A stretch of 64,000 bases of DNA from assembly GCF_000428945.1 (NCBI RefSeq), contig NZ_AUAX01000003.1, positions 62,001 through 126,000 on the forward strand, written 5' to 3'. Positions 60,256 through 63,656 of this stretch are shown piece by piece; the first letter of the stretch is position 1; every line of letters begins with the position of its first letter. The position numbers were made by a program, and so were the translations under genes. The notes under the pieces are model-generated. The model searched no databases. It had not been told where the DNA came from and saw only the letters and a list, made by a program, of their open reading frames with translations. The DNA is from Hamadaea tsunoensis DSM 44101. Its GTDB lineage: Bacteria > Actinomycetota > Actinomycetes > Mycobacteriales > Micromonosporaceae.

Positions 60256-62097
60256 ATGTCCAACTCCCGCCGATCCAGCTCACGGCTGTTCCGGCTGTCC
60301 GCGGTGCCGACCCTGGCGCTCGCGGTCGTGGCCGGTCTGCCGCTCGCCACCGCGCATCAGGCGCCCGCGGGCACAGGCTGGACCCCGATGACCCCGGTGT
60401 CGCTGACCTACACGGCGAACGCGCCGGGCAAGACTGCTTACGGCAACCTGATCGCGTTCAACGACTTCCACGGCGCGATCGACCCGCCGACCGGCAGCGG
60501 CGGCCTGATCAACGGCACTCCTGCCGGCGGTTCCGAGTACCTGACCACCTGGGTCAAGAAGCTGCGGACCGAGGCGCAGGCCTCCGGCGAGCAGTCGCTC
60601 ACCGTGGCCGCCGGCGACCTGATCGGCGCCTCGCCGCTGGTCAGCGCGGGCTTCCACGACGAGCCCGCCATCGAGATCATGAACAACCTGGGCCTCGACC
60701 TGAGCTCGGTGGGCAACCACGAGTTCGACGAGGGCACCACCGAGCTGCGCCGCATGCAGTTCGGCGGCTGCCACCCGACCGACGGATGCCAGGACGGCGA
60801 CGGCTTCGCCGGGGCGAAGTTCCCGTACCTCGCGGCGAACGTCCTCGACAAGAAAACCCACCTGCCGTTCCTGCTGCCGGTGAGCATCAAGCTCGTCGGT
60901 GGCGTACCGGTCGGGTTCGTGGGCATGACGCTCAAGGGCACGCCCGGCATCGTCAACCCGGCCGGCGTGACGTCGGTCGAGTTCAAGGACGAGATCGAGA
61001 CCGCCAACTTCTACGCCTCGGCGCTCAAGCTGCTCGGCGTGAAGTCGCTGGTCCTGCTCATCCACCAGGGCGGCGCGCAGAGCGTCAGCACCGACGTGTC
61101 CAGCTGCGTCGGGTTCGCCGGCGACATCACCCCGATCGTGGCGGGTCTCGACCCGGCCTACGGCATCGTGGTGTCGGGGCACACGCACCGCTTCTACTCC
61201 TGCGCCCTGCCGAACAAGGCCGGCCAGAACGTCGTCGTCACCAGCGCCGGCTCGAACGGCCAGCTGCTGACCGACATCTCGTACACGCTCGACAAGAAGA
61301 CCGGCCGGTTCGCCTCCGTCGAGGCGCACAACGTGATCGTGGAGAACGGCGTACGCAACCCGGACGGGTCGTGGCAGTTCGTCAACGGGGTGCCGGTCCG
61401 CAACCCCGACCTGGTCGACCCGAGCGCCAAGGTGATCGCCGACAAGTACCGCACCGCCATCGCGTCGCTGGCCAACAAGGTCATCGGCAAGATCACGTCG
61501 GACCTGTCCTCGGCCGCGCTGCCCAACGGCGAGAGCCCGATCGGTGACGTGATCGCCGACGCGCAGCTCGCGTACACGGCCACGTCGGCCGGGGCGCAGA
61601 TCGCGTTCATGAACCCGGGCGGCATCCGGGCGTCGCTGTCCTACGCGGCGAGCGTCGGCGGCGAGGCGCCGGGCGAGGTCACCTACGGCGAATGCTTCAC
61701 GGTCCAGCCGTTCAACAACCTGGTCGTGACGCAGACGTTCACCGGTGCGCAGATCAAGGAGGTGCTGGAGCAGCAGTTCGCCGGGTACGCCGGCCAGGGC
61801 ACCACGCGCATCCTGCAGGTCAGCAAGGGCTTCACCTACACCTACACGGCGAGCGCCGCCCTGGGCTCCCGGATCAGCGACGTCAAGCTCAACGGCGTCG
61901 CGCTCGACCCGGCCGCGAACTACCAGGTGACGACGAACGACTTCCTCGCCAACGGCGGTGACGGCTTCACCAACCTGAAGCTGGGCGCCGGGCGTACCAC
62001 GGCTCCGGGCTTCGACGTCGACGCGCTCACGGCGTACATCGCCGGGAACTCGCCGGTCGCGCCGGGCACCGCGGACCGCATCACCAAGGTGGCGTGA
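60256..62097 (+). CDS. Secreted 5'-nucleotidase/2',3'-cyclic phosphodiesterase-like metallophosphatase
   Basis: The 613-residue exported protein has a signal peptide at residues 1-34 (RLFRLSAVPTLALAVVAGLPLATA). The calcineurin-like metallophosphatase domain has NLIAFNDFHGAI (D, H), AAGDLIGASPL, VGNHEFDEG and VSGHTHRFYS. The C-terminal 5'-nucleotidase domain has FMNPGGIRASL, YGECFTVQPFNNLVV and YQVTTNDFLANGGDGF for nucleotide binding. No LPXTG or lipobox is seen, so it is probably released. It scavenges phosphate and nucleosides outside the cell. ATG 60256 has GGAGG 7-8 nt upstream. Transcribed divergently from pcrA. Confidence 0.94.
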   Translation: MSNSRRSSSRLFRLSAVPTLALAVVAGLPLATAHQAPAGTGWTPMTPVSLTYTANAPGKTAYGNLIAFNDFHGAIDPPTGSGGLINGTPAGGSEYLTTWVKKLRTEAQASGEQSLTVAAGDLIGASPLVSAGFHDEPAIEIMNNLGLDLSSVGNHEFDEGTTELRRMQFGGCHPTDGCQDGDGFAGAKFPYLAANVLDKKTHLPFLLPVSIKLVGGVPVGFVGMTLKGTPGIVNPAGVTSVEFKDEIETANFYASALKLLGVKSLVLLIHQGGAQSVSTDVSSCVGFAGDITPIVAGLDPAYGIVVSGHTHRFYSCALPNKAGQNVVVTSAGSNGQLLTDISYTLDKKTGRFASVEAHNVIVENGVRNPDGSWQFVNGVPVRNPDLVDPSAKVIADKYRTAIASLANKVIGKITSDLSSAALPNGESPIGDVIADAQLAYTATSAGAQIAFMNPGGIRASLSYAASVGGEAPGEVTYGECFTVQPFNNLVVTQTFTGAQIKEVLEQQFAGYAGQGTTRILQVSKGFTYTYTASAALGSRISDVKLNGVALDPAANYQVTTNDFLANGGDGFTNLKLGAGRTTAPGFDVDALTAYIAGNSPVAPGTADRITKVA

Positions 62098-62120
62098 GTC
62101 CCAGATGGCGGTCGAGGCCC

Positions 62121-62148
62121 TTGACTTCACCTCGCCCCGTGGCATAGT
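62121..62148 (+). promoter_or_regulatory. Promoter of the chorismate mutase leader transcript
   Basis: TTGACT (62121-62126) and CATAGT (62143-62148), spaced 16 bp, form a good promoter. The expected start (about 62155) falls on or next to the GTG of the leader peptide at 62156, implying a leaderless leader-peptide mRNA. Confidence 0.65.
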
Positions 62149-62155
62149 TGGCGAC

Positions 62156-62221
62156 GTGATCGAGCAGGTGCGATTTTACTTTTACGGCCCCGGGAGTCCC
62201 GCCGCCGTAGGTCGCGCCTGA
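62156..62221 (+). CDS. Phe/Tyr leader peptide of chorismate mutase attenuator
   Basis: The 21-codon open frame starts at GTG 62156 (or GTG 62168) and reads MIEQVRFYFYG then PGSPAAVGRA. Codons TTT-TAC-TTT-TAC at 62174-62185 give Phe-Tyr-Phe-Tyr, the products downstream of chorismate mutase; TTT should be rare in such a GC-rich genome, which would favour ribosome pausing. It stops at 62219-62221, 18 nt before a strong terminator (62240-62270) that precedes the chorismate mutase gene. The arrangement is that of a ribosome-mediated attenuator. No SD is visible; the mRNA may begin at the GTG. Confidence 0.75.
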   Translation: MIEQVRFYFYGPGSPAAVGRA

Positions 62222-62239
62222 GCGCCTCAAGACCTCACG

Positions 62240-62270
62240 AAAGCCCCGGGCTCCCAGAGCCCGGGGCTTT
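62240..62270 (+). terminator. Attenuator terminator upstream of chorismate mutase
   Basis: AAAGCCCCGGGCTC (62240-62253) and GAGCCCGGGGCTTT (62257-62270), loop CCA, form a perfect 14-bp stem followed by TT. It lies 51 bp before the chorismate mutase ATG. The CCCCGGG of its left arm is repeated in the leader at 62188-62194, directly after the FYFY codons. An intermediate dyad AGGTC/GACCT (62209-62213 and 62231-62235) lies between. Confidence 0.8.
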
Positions 62271-62321
62271 TTGCTGCGGGCACCGAGGATCCCGATCCAA
62301 CCCATCGAGGAGTACGCGGAC

Positions 62322-62642
62322 ATGAGCACTCAGGCAACGACGGCGGCCCCGGCCGCGGTGGCGCACGGGCTGAACGGGACGGGGACCACGGAACCCGGCG
62401 CCGCCGGCGAGATCGTCGATCTGCGCGCGCGGATCGACGCGATCGATGCCGCGCTGATCGACCTGTGGAAGGAGCGGGCCGCGATCTCCCGGCAGGTCGG
62501 CGCGACCCGCGTCGCGTCCGGTGGGACCCGGCTAGTCCTCGCCCGCGAGCGGGAGATCCTCGACCGTTTCCGCGACGAGCTCGGCGCCGACGGTACGCAG
62601 CTCGCCCTGCTCATCCTGCGGGCCGGCCGCGGGCCGCTCTGA
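62322..62642 (+). CDS. Chorismate mutase, AroQ type
   Basis: The 106-residue protein is a small AroQ-class chorismate mutase that makes prephenate for Phe and Tyr. The helix-1 pattern IVDLRARIDAIDAALIDLWKERAAISRQVGATRV holds the conserved Arg and Lys/Arg active-site positions; REREILDRFRDEL follows. The N-terminal about 30 residues are Ala/Thr-rich and disordered. ATG 62322 has GAGGAG about 10 nt upstream. It is the counterpart of the mycobacterial intracellular chorismate mutase (Rv0948c type), also found near uvrD1/pcrA, which works with DAHP synthase. Its expression is likely controlled by the Phe/Tyr attenuator directly upstream. Confidence 0.88.
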   Translation: MSTQATTAAPAAVAHGLNGTGTTEPGAAGEIVDLRARIDAIDAALIDLWKERAAISRQVGATRVASGGTRLVLAREREILDRFRDELGADGTQLALLILRAGRGPL

Positions 62643-62987
62643 GCCGCGCCACGGCCGCCGGGACCAAGGACGCACCGCCAGGACCAGGTTCGCGGGACAA
62701 CGTTGTCCCGGGATCTTGACTTCGCGTGGAATTCAGCCGAAAGTACGAGACCGGGCACGCGAACCTTCGCGTACCCGGCCGGCGTTCTATGTGGTGGAAC
62801 CTTCGGTCCCGGGGTGGCACCCCCGGGCGTTTCCAGGCCCGATCGTGAACGGGGGCGCGTTGGCGCGCGCCCCCCACGTTCGGGGACACAGGCACTCTCG
62901 CAAAATAAAAGCCCTGGTGGACAGTCCCGTTACCTAGCTGATACCCATACGGGACGGCCCCGATACGCTCCGCCGAGGAACGAACCC
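62643..62987. other. 345-bp convergent region rich in inverted repeats
   Basis: No gene is supported. It contains a perfect 18-bp palindrome CGGGACAACGTTGTCCCG (62693-62710), a 13-bp near-perfect hairpin CCGGGCACGCGAA/TTCGCGTACCCGG (62751-62778), an imperfect GC-rich hairpin at about 62847-62881 and a 7-bp stem GTCCCGT/ACGGGAC (62924-62955) placed to end the response-regulator transcript. Several probably act as terminators for the converging transcripts. Confidence 0.55.
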
Positions 62988-63656
62988 TCAGACGAGCCGG
63001 CGATCCGCCGCCCACCGGGACAATTCGTAGCGGTTCGACATCTGCAACTTCCGCAGCACATTGCTGACGTGCGTCTCGACCGTCTTGATCGAGATGAACA
63101 GCTCCTTGGCGATCTCCTTGTACGCGTACCCGCGCGCGAGCAGGCGCAGCACCTCCCGCTCCCGGTTGGTCAGCTGGTCCAGCTCGGGATCGGCGAGCGA
63201 GGCGTCCGGCCGGGCGGCGAAGGCGTCCAGCACGAATCCGGCCAGCCGGGGGCTGAAGACGGCGTCCCCGTCGGCGACCCGGCGGATCGCCACCACGAGT
63301 TCGTCCGGCGAGATCGTCTTCGTGACGTAACCGCGCGCGCCGGCCCTGATCAGTCCGATGACGTCCTCGGCGGCGTCGGAGACGCTCAGGGCGAGGAAGC
63401 GCACCTGCGGGTGGGCCCGGCGGATCGCGTCGAGCACCGCCCGGCCGCCGCCCTCGGGCATGTGCACGTCCAGCAGGACGACGTCGGGCTCGTGCGCGCC
63501 GATCGCGCTGATCGCCTCGGGGACGGTCGCGGCCTCGCCGACGACGTCCACGTGGACGCCCAGTTCCGCCCGCACCCCCGCCCGGAACATCGCGTGGTCG
63601 TCGACGAGGAACACCCGCAGGCGGCGGGGTTCCGCGACAGTCTCGGGCTCGGTCAT
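62988..63656 (-). CDS. NarL/LuxR-family response regulator
   Basis: The 222-residue two-component response regulator has a receiver domain with acidic pair D19-D20, phospho-acceptor D63 in VVLLDVHMP, Ser/Thr in LALSVSD and Lys in GYVTKTI. The C-terminal LuxR HTH is LTNREREVLRLLARGYAYKEIAKELFISIKTVETHVSNVLRKLQ. Its ATG overlaps the stop of the sensor kinase gene (ATGA), so kinase and regulator are co-translated. The target genes are not evident in the window. Confidence 0.94.
   Translation of the reverse strand: MTEPETVAEPRRLRVFLVDDHAMFRAGVRAELGVHVDVVGEAATVPEAISAIGAHEPDVVLLDVHMPEGGGRAVLDAIRRAHPQVRFLALSVSDAAEDVIGLIRAGARGYVTKTISPDELVVAIRRVADGDAVFSPRLAGFVLDAFAARPDASLADPELDQLTNREREVLRLLARGYAYKEIAKELFISIKTVETHVSNVLRKLQMSNRYELSRWAADRRLV

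Follow-up and report, generated by a model that had tools for sequence, protein, structure and literature searches.

A short reading frame with many phenylalanine and tyrosine codons and, after it, a hairpin that resembles a terminator precede the chorismate mutase gene aroQ of Hamadaea tsunoensis DSM 44101. What do these elements do? They lie in the stretch of DNA analysed here (the window, 64,000 nucleotides), and an earlier note on that sequence had proposed a ribosome-mediated attenuator in front of chorismate mutase. Conservation, codon content and paired changes support the proposal. In all likelihood the element is a leaderless ribosome-mediated transcription attenuator of chorismate mutase that senses mainly charged tRNA-Phe, and as judged from sequence it very probably switches aroQ on when Phe or Tyr runs short. 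The attenuator reading is built on the anatomy of the region, its conservation, coordinated structural changes and codons that match the pathway; from these we infer the start site, translation, sensing and kinetics. The parts are collected in Table 1.

Table 1. Features of the aroQ leader region, in window coordinates
Feature	Position	Strand	Basis
Promoter: -35 TTGACT, 16-nt spacer, -10 CATAGT	62121-62126 (-35), 62143-62148 (-10)	+	motif listing
Leader ORF, 21 codons, probably leaderless: VIEQVRFYFYGPGSPAAVGRA, then stop	62156..62221	+	frame translation, relatives
Sensor codons TTT TAC TTT TAC (Phe-Tyr-Phe-Tyr)	62174..62185	+	sequence and relatives
Leader hairpin (1:2), UACGGC/GCCGUA closing CGGG/CCCG	62183..62209	+	fold, pair counts
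Antiterminator 5' strand, within the ORF: GGGAG-U-CCCG (62192-62201) and GUAGGUC (62207-62213)	62192..62213	+	swap test, pair counts, nascent folding
Antiterminator 3' strand: GACCU(C)AC (62231-62238) and CGGGCUCCC (62247-62255)	62231..62255	+	swap test, pair counts, nascent folding
Intrinsic terminator GAAAGCCCCGGGCTC-CCA-GAGCCCGGGGCTTTT plus T	62239..62272	+	fold, pair counts, -30.1 kcal/mol
Shine-Dalgarno-like GAGGAG of aroQ, outside every hairpin	62307..62312	+	sequence
aroQ, monofunctional chorismate mutase, 106 aa	62322..62642	+	PF01817, NF005894, TIGR01808

The identity of the downstream gene is as the earlier note had it. The product matches PF01817 with 39.9 bits (cut-off 27), as well as NF005894 and TIGR01808 above their cut-offs, and aroQ is the sole CM_2 match detected in the window genome. 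By eye, the gene is followed by a GC-rich intergenic stretch with several dyads (62643-62987) and then by a convergent ORF on the minus strand (62988-63656), which resembles a LuxR-type response regulator.

The promoter named in the earlier note is present as described, and no other sigma-70-like site is listed in 61500-63400, where shuffled sequences average 0.2. The GTG that opens the leader frame lies 7 nt past the -10 hexamer. Relatives keep this spacing. The hexamer, CATACT in 117 cases, stands 6-7 nt 5' of a GTG or ATG in 130/130 distinct family leaders, a figure to be read with the rule of the script that located the starts, which required a -10-like hexamer 4-9 nt upstream and a short frame containing two or more F/Y codons. 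The script was run on 147 loci and found a frame in all of them, giving the 130 distinct leaders. A further locus, from Streptomyces sp. WM6378 (L038), was excluded because it has no F/Y leader; it has no match to model R3 (see below) either. The start was misplaced in genus g9 and at L209 and L224, where the sequences show the usual start, and a few over-long frames remain among the leaders picked. The spacing suggests that the leader ORF is probably leaderless, as had been claimed, with its ATG or GTG at or near the transcription start.

The run of four sensor codons, also noted earlier, was set against shuffled sequence. When 62100-62321 was shuffled 5000 times with dinucleotides preserved, no shuffle produced a short ORF in which four successive codons are all F/Y, and the best, three in four, is reached by 27. 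With at least two F/Y demanded by the script, Phe occurs in all 130 distinct family leaders and Tyr in 129. Each of the 130 contains at least one TTT codon. TTT had been expected to be rare at this GC content. It makes up 177 of 292 Phe codons in the leaders, compared with 15 of 344 for 29 long window frames; the window count is lowered in part because the frames were selected at GC of at least 85% in third positions, which itself disfavours TTT. One family leader, FTGFLGFT (L148, in genome G326), has three Phe codons and no Tyr. It amounts to a natural Phe-only version, and it carries a matching antiterminator change, CGAGUCCG:CGGGCUCG.

Three structures share the leader RNA. The terminator is a perfect 14-bp stem, as the earlier note had said, with 62240-62253 paired to 62257-62270, or 15 pairs if a G.U is counted. 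A pattern scanner applied to this region of the window listed no terminator, and most of the short T run sits within the stem. Among the 130 distinct leaders the longest T run 3' of the terminator is below three in 25. The second structure is an antiterminator. Here the earlier note was right in one respect and wrong in another. It had seen an AGGTC/GACCT dyad and no long antiterminator. The dyad is real and is the upper stem of the antiterminator (GUAGGUC with GACCUAC, seven pairs and one bulge), but a lower stem is present as well, in which 62192-62201 form nine pairs with 62247-62255 around one bulged U. Across most relatives this lower stem joins the leader segment GGAGUCCGG, a mimic of the terminator 3' arm GGAG[C/U]CCGG, to the 5' arm CCGGGCUCC. 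The second part of the antiterminator 3' strand falls in the 5' arm and loop of the terminator, and the leader stop codon sits in the antiterminator loop. The third structure is a competing hairpin, UACGGC/GCCGUA around CCGG/CCGG, which contains the last Tyr codon. Its inner part has an energy of -15.4 kcal/mol in the window, and CAGGUGCGA/UCGCGCCUG prolong it on the outside in the minimum-energy fold there; many relatives lengthen it by GCGCGA/UCGCGC.

How might these structures control the gene? Transcription would begin at or beside the GTG, and a ribosome would trail RNA polymerase along the leader. With charged tRNA-Phe and tRNA-Tyr available, the ribosome would clear the F/Y codons and arrive at the stop codon. 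The leader hairpin would then re-form, or GUAGGUC would be covered, the terminator would fold and transcription would end. Conversely, scarcity of Phe (mainly) or Tyr would stall the ribosome on the F/Y codons, masking UACGGC. This would open the leader hairpin and free the codons after the FYFY run to pair with the terminator 5' arm. If they do so before the terminator 3' arm emerges, aroQ would be transcribed.

Folding under ribosome constraints, which the earlier note had suggested, agrees with one half of this scheme: a stalled ribosome is predicted to give the antiterminator, but the state at the stop codon is hardly distinguished from it. In nascent window RNA reaching to the end of the terminator 5' arm, the leader hairpin forms at 0.97 when no ribosome is present. 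A ribosome at the first UUU abolishes the hairpin, and the antiterminator lower and upper stems then form at 0.92 and 1.0. The lower stem falls to 0.46 with the stall at the second UUU and to 0.23 at the last UAC. Stalls later in the run thus weaken the lower stem, which makes the early Phe codons the best sensors. A ribosome at the stop codon removes the upper stem and leaves the lower stem at 0.35 in the window. Across 124 of the 130 sequences, however, the leader and the terminator arm pair with a mean of 0.29 when no ribosome is present, 0.89 when one is stalled and 0.79 when it stands at the stop; this pairing exceeds 0.5 in 113/124 at the stop and in 36/124 without a ribosome. The folding model therefore does not separate the stop from the stalled state, and it is assumed that they would be told apart when the ribosome is released and the hairpin refolds, or by the space that the ribosome occupies. 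At equilibrium the full-length window RNA favours the terminator (-30.1 kcal/mol) over the whole antiterminator (-21.5 kcal/mol). Since the terminator is always favoured in the full-length RNA, switching must be kinetic.

What if the hairpins acted on translation instead, masking the aroQ ribosome-binding site rather than terminating transcription? The short T runs of several terminators would suit such a mechanism. However, the GAGGAG of aroQ lies about 35 nt past the terminator and takes part in none of the three structures, and the distance from leader to gene ranges widely, from an estimated -11 to 280 nt. Translation attenuation is therefore very unlikely, and attenuation of transcription is the reading followed here.

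If the three structures matter, they should be preserved by paired changes in relatives. Two alignments were used, A1 with 52 mostly closer sequences and A3 with 64 diverse ones; the latter was fitted to the hairpin and the terminator, not to the antiterminator. Compensatory changes, which the earlier note had foreseen for the terminator, are found in A3 for all three structures and in A1 for the terminator only. In A1 the terminator alone exceeds shuffles in changes on both sides of pairs. The leader hairpin is paired in 99.0% of cells and the antiterminator in 95.6%, values equalled by 56/500 and 18/500 shuffles; these two hardly beat the shuffles because there is too little variation. A3 is more telling. 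Its terminator is paired in 97.1% of cells, with 62 cells changed on both sides as against 14.9 in shuffles, and its leader hairpin in 94.1%, with 17 as against 4.0 (0/500 as high in both cases). For the antiterminator, 87.1% of cells are paired (shuffles reach 82.5%, and slid versions do not exceed 49.5%), and 34 cells are changed on both sides as against 12.6 (0/500). Two further measures are weak for the antiterminator: pairs with a both-side change number 5 against 3.5 (77/500 shuffles as high) and further pair types 23 against 20.0 (32/500).

The antiterminator can also be probed by exchanging its strands between relatives. In an anchored swap test with 66 distinct pairs, leaders and terminators pair at -15.21 kcal/mol with their own partners and at -13.39 kcal/mol with permuted ones, and 0/10000 permutations are as low; the test skipped 6 of the 130 sequences and retains in its count at least four (L137, L142, L143 and L148) in the wrong register. 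A cruder version with whole U and D segments, which are badly delimited, gives a much weaker difference (-25.75 against -25.37, sd 0.14). The shuffle and permutation controls ignore relatedness; nonetheless, the paired changes recur in separate genera and families. Recurrent antiterminator pairs there include GGAGUCCGG:CCGGGCUCC, GAUGUCCGG:CCGGGCAUC, GUUGUCCGG:CCGGGCAAC, GGAAG:CUUCC and GGACUCCGG:CCGGAGUCC, and in the leader hairpin UACGGC:GCCGUA gives way to UAUGGC:GCCAUA or UACGGG:CCCGUA.

One aspect of the leader might suggest a different function. Perhaps the short ORF encodes a small peptide with a function of its own, or an arrest peptide, with the sequence GSPAAVGRA itself mattering. 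Indeed, this C-terminus is nearly invariant in most genera examined, and in most relatives the F/Y run is followed by GGC NCC GGG AGT CCG GCA GCC GTR GGT CGC GCC TGA. However, these codons vary little at third positions also. Moreover, the leaders read from g16, g41 and G315 retain the block GCCGTAGGTCGCGC mostly in another frame (PSRRSR or PGRRSR as opposed to SPAAVGRA), and at L115, L118 and L135 the ORF stops early inside the block and the RNA is kept. The F/Y codons stay in frame in all of these. Because several genera read the conserved RNA in a different frame, it is the RNA and not the peptide that is under selection, and because the block outlasts frame shifts and early stops, the conserved peptide tail is a by-product. 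A functional peptide is thus a highly improbable explanation.

How widespread is the leader? A covariance model built from 52 leaders (R1) matches 352 of 354 Micromonosporaceae genomes, exactly those 352 in which aroQ was detected. Completeness is 77% for G001 and 69% for G101, the two genomes that have neither leader nor aroQ. The weakest best match per genome has E = 2.4e-12, and aroQ lies on the same strand at most 400 nt downstream in 81/81 loci fetched as best R1 hits. Terminator-only matches can score up to 38 bits with R1. Two genomes (G141 and G142) have second hits, L150 and L151, which have no aroQ by tblastn and resemble plain terminators; these were set aside. The alignment of relatives that the earlier note had called for thus shows the F/Y codons, the frame and the terminator retained in close and in distant relatives.

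The leader is not confined to the family. At E <= 1e-6, R2 matches 230/397 genomes from the order, a count that takes in the family itself, and R3 matches 75/394 genomes in the class and 21/396 in the phylum; some of the R3 hits read are not leaders, so counts at this threshold outside the family include false matches. Nevertheless, aroQ lies downstream in 20/20 R2 hits that were chosen and read outside Micromonosporaceae. Reading of the first 20 R3 regions gave nine leaders before aroQ, seven before DAHP synthase and four non-leaders; a further 18 gave two before chorismate mutase, 11 F/W/Y leaders and five non-leaders. All six R3 hits outside the class were read. Two, both from family f69 in another class (L259 in G1061 and L260 in G1033), are F/W/Y leaders whose runs are of the YFWFF or YFWFY type and which precede a DAHP-synthase-like ORF; the remaining four are non-leaders. 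The R3 hits rejected on reading are L202, L205, L206, L210, L216, L229, L231-L233 and L261-L264. Before aroQ, four g140 genomes carry leaders of the type MRKLTTFVFTYGTG. At two f8/g51 loci the leader is VLSWQRRFFYGYR, followed by a chorismate mutase ORF that Pfam confirms in one. Pfam also confirms the enzyme at L198, L194, L185 and L207, and the gene at L199 was judged by eye.

Why should some of these leaders contain Trp codons? Chorismate mutase leads only to Phe and Tyr, whereas DAHP synthase leads to Phe, Tyr and Trp. The window genome itself offers an example of the second kind. Its type-I DAHP synthase has its own Tyr-Trp-Phe leader, VTRRYWRFTLALGGARVSRR, just 3' of a -10-like hexamer (L214, on contig C32), with GGCUCUGGGUG:CACCCAGAGCC pairing and a terminator, and this is a second candidate attenuator. 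No F/W/Y leader was found at pheA or tyrA of that genome, and none at its type-II DAHP synthase (L215). Within the family, a leader script that counted F, W and Y was applied to 21 DAHP-synthase loci from 20 matching genomes among 30 searched. It found a leader in 18, with Trp and Phe in 18/18 and Tyr in 17/18, and none at L240, L255 and L256. In family f31, 18 of the 20 regions read have a leader, and each has Phe, Trp and Tyr (FWFWY-type; L201, L203, L204, L208, L209, L211, L213 and L217-L227). In 13 of them the ORF that follows encodes DAHP synthase, with Pfam run on L201 only; for the other five the longest ORF printed is in another frame. By comparison, Trp occurs in one of the 130 distinct family aroQ leaders (L127), with another case (L049) lying in a mis-picked extension, and in 2/31 aroQ leaders of other families (L228 and L230). 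In the leaders read, then, codon content mirrors the pathway, with Phe and Tyr before chorismate mutase, and Phe, Trp and in most cases Tyr before DAHP synthase.

The f31 leaders were retrieved with a model built from chorismate-mutase leaders alone, as were those of f69, although part of the score reflects the shared form of the terminator. Perhaps this is suggestive of common descent. One ancestral leaderless aromatic RNA switch may have spread through Actinomycetota, its sensor codons retuned for each enzyme, its RNA so fixed that the ORF changes frame and its retained TTT making Phe the primary signal. This is a tentative reading, about which we are somewhat more doubtful than confident. 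The same codon evidence bears on a last alternative, a ligand-binding riboswitch or T-box with an incidental ORF, which would account for the strong conserved RNA structure (fold z-score -5.6) but is extremely unlikely, as the reading frame, its start codon, the spacing from the promoter and the F/Y codons are all conserved, codon identity tracks the pathway and an Rfam search returned no family at its gathering score, the only match at E <= 1 being sot2652 with 20.3 bits against 61.

Is there a precedent for such an attenuator? In E. coli, pheL-pheA combines a leader with Phe codons, a terminator and an antiterminator before a chorismate mutase activity, as at aroQ. There, however, pheA encodes a fused chorismate mutase-prephenate dehydratase, and the leader is not known to be leaderless or to contain Tyr codons. 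The lineage is also unrelated to that of the window genome. The pheL-pheA attenuator is named in a review that also describes the AroR leader of Corynebacterium glutamicum (PMC11802643). AroR is an actinobacterial leader peptide with Phe-Tyr-Phe upstream of aroF, and it is reported to respond to limitation of Phe and not of Tyr (PMC11802643; PMC4046766). Sensing by the early Phe codons, as proposed for aroQ, fits that response (PMC11802643). However, AroR controls a DAHP synthase whereas the aroQ leader precedes chorismate mutase. In Streptomyces lividans TK24, leader peptides ahead of amino-acid genes (leuL, trpL, ilvL, metL and thrL) are mostly leaderless ORFs with regulatory codons, but for the eight leaders listed, sensing of Phe or Tyr or a place before chorismate mutase is not mentioned (PMC8079986). 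The ilvB1 attenuator of Mycobacterium tuberculosis likewise has a uORF with sensor codons and a competing terminator and antiterminator, but senses branched-chain amino acids before another gene (PMC13236596).

Ribosome-mediated attenuation and leaderless ORFs are thus already known in actinobacteria (PMC8079986; PMC4633059; PMC13236596). The kind is not new; the aroQ leader appears to be a new instance of it. Phe/Tyr uORFs at shikimate genes are described elsewhere, with no actinobacterial genus among the terms looked up (PMC6429828), and passages of three other papers contain nothing on a chorismate-mutase attenuator (PMC2965389; PMC1173090; PMC2659441). More generally, no account of an actinobacterial chorismate-mutase attenuator was found in a literature search that covered few subscription journals. 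An early survey reported no conserved RNA structures upstream of Phe or Tyr operons in actinobacteria (Seliverstov et al., 2005; PMC1262725). Against that stands a leader in 352 of 354 sampled Micromonosporaceae and its kin before aroQ in several other families.

The constraint on the RNA here is strong enough to pass for a conserved peptide. The codon sets at the two branch points amount to a natural experiment on the choice of attenuator signal. Finally, the enzyme is reported to depend on DAHP synthase for its activity (PMC11802643; PMC4281200), and the aroQ attenuator would add a transcriptional layer to the control of an enzyme that relies on a partner in this way.
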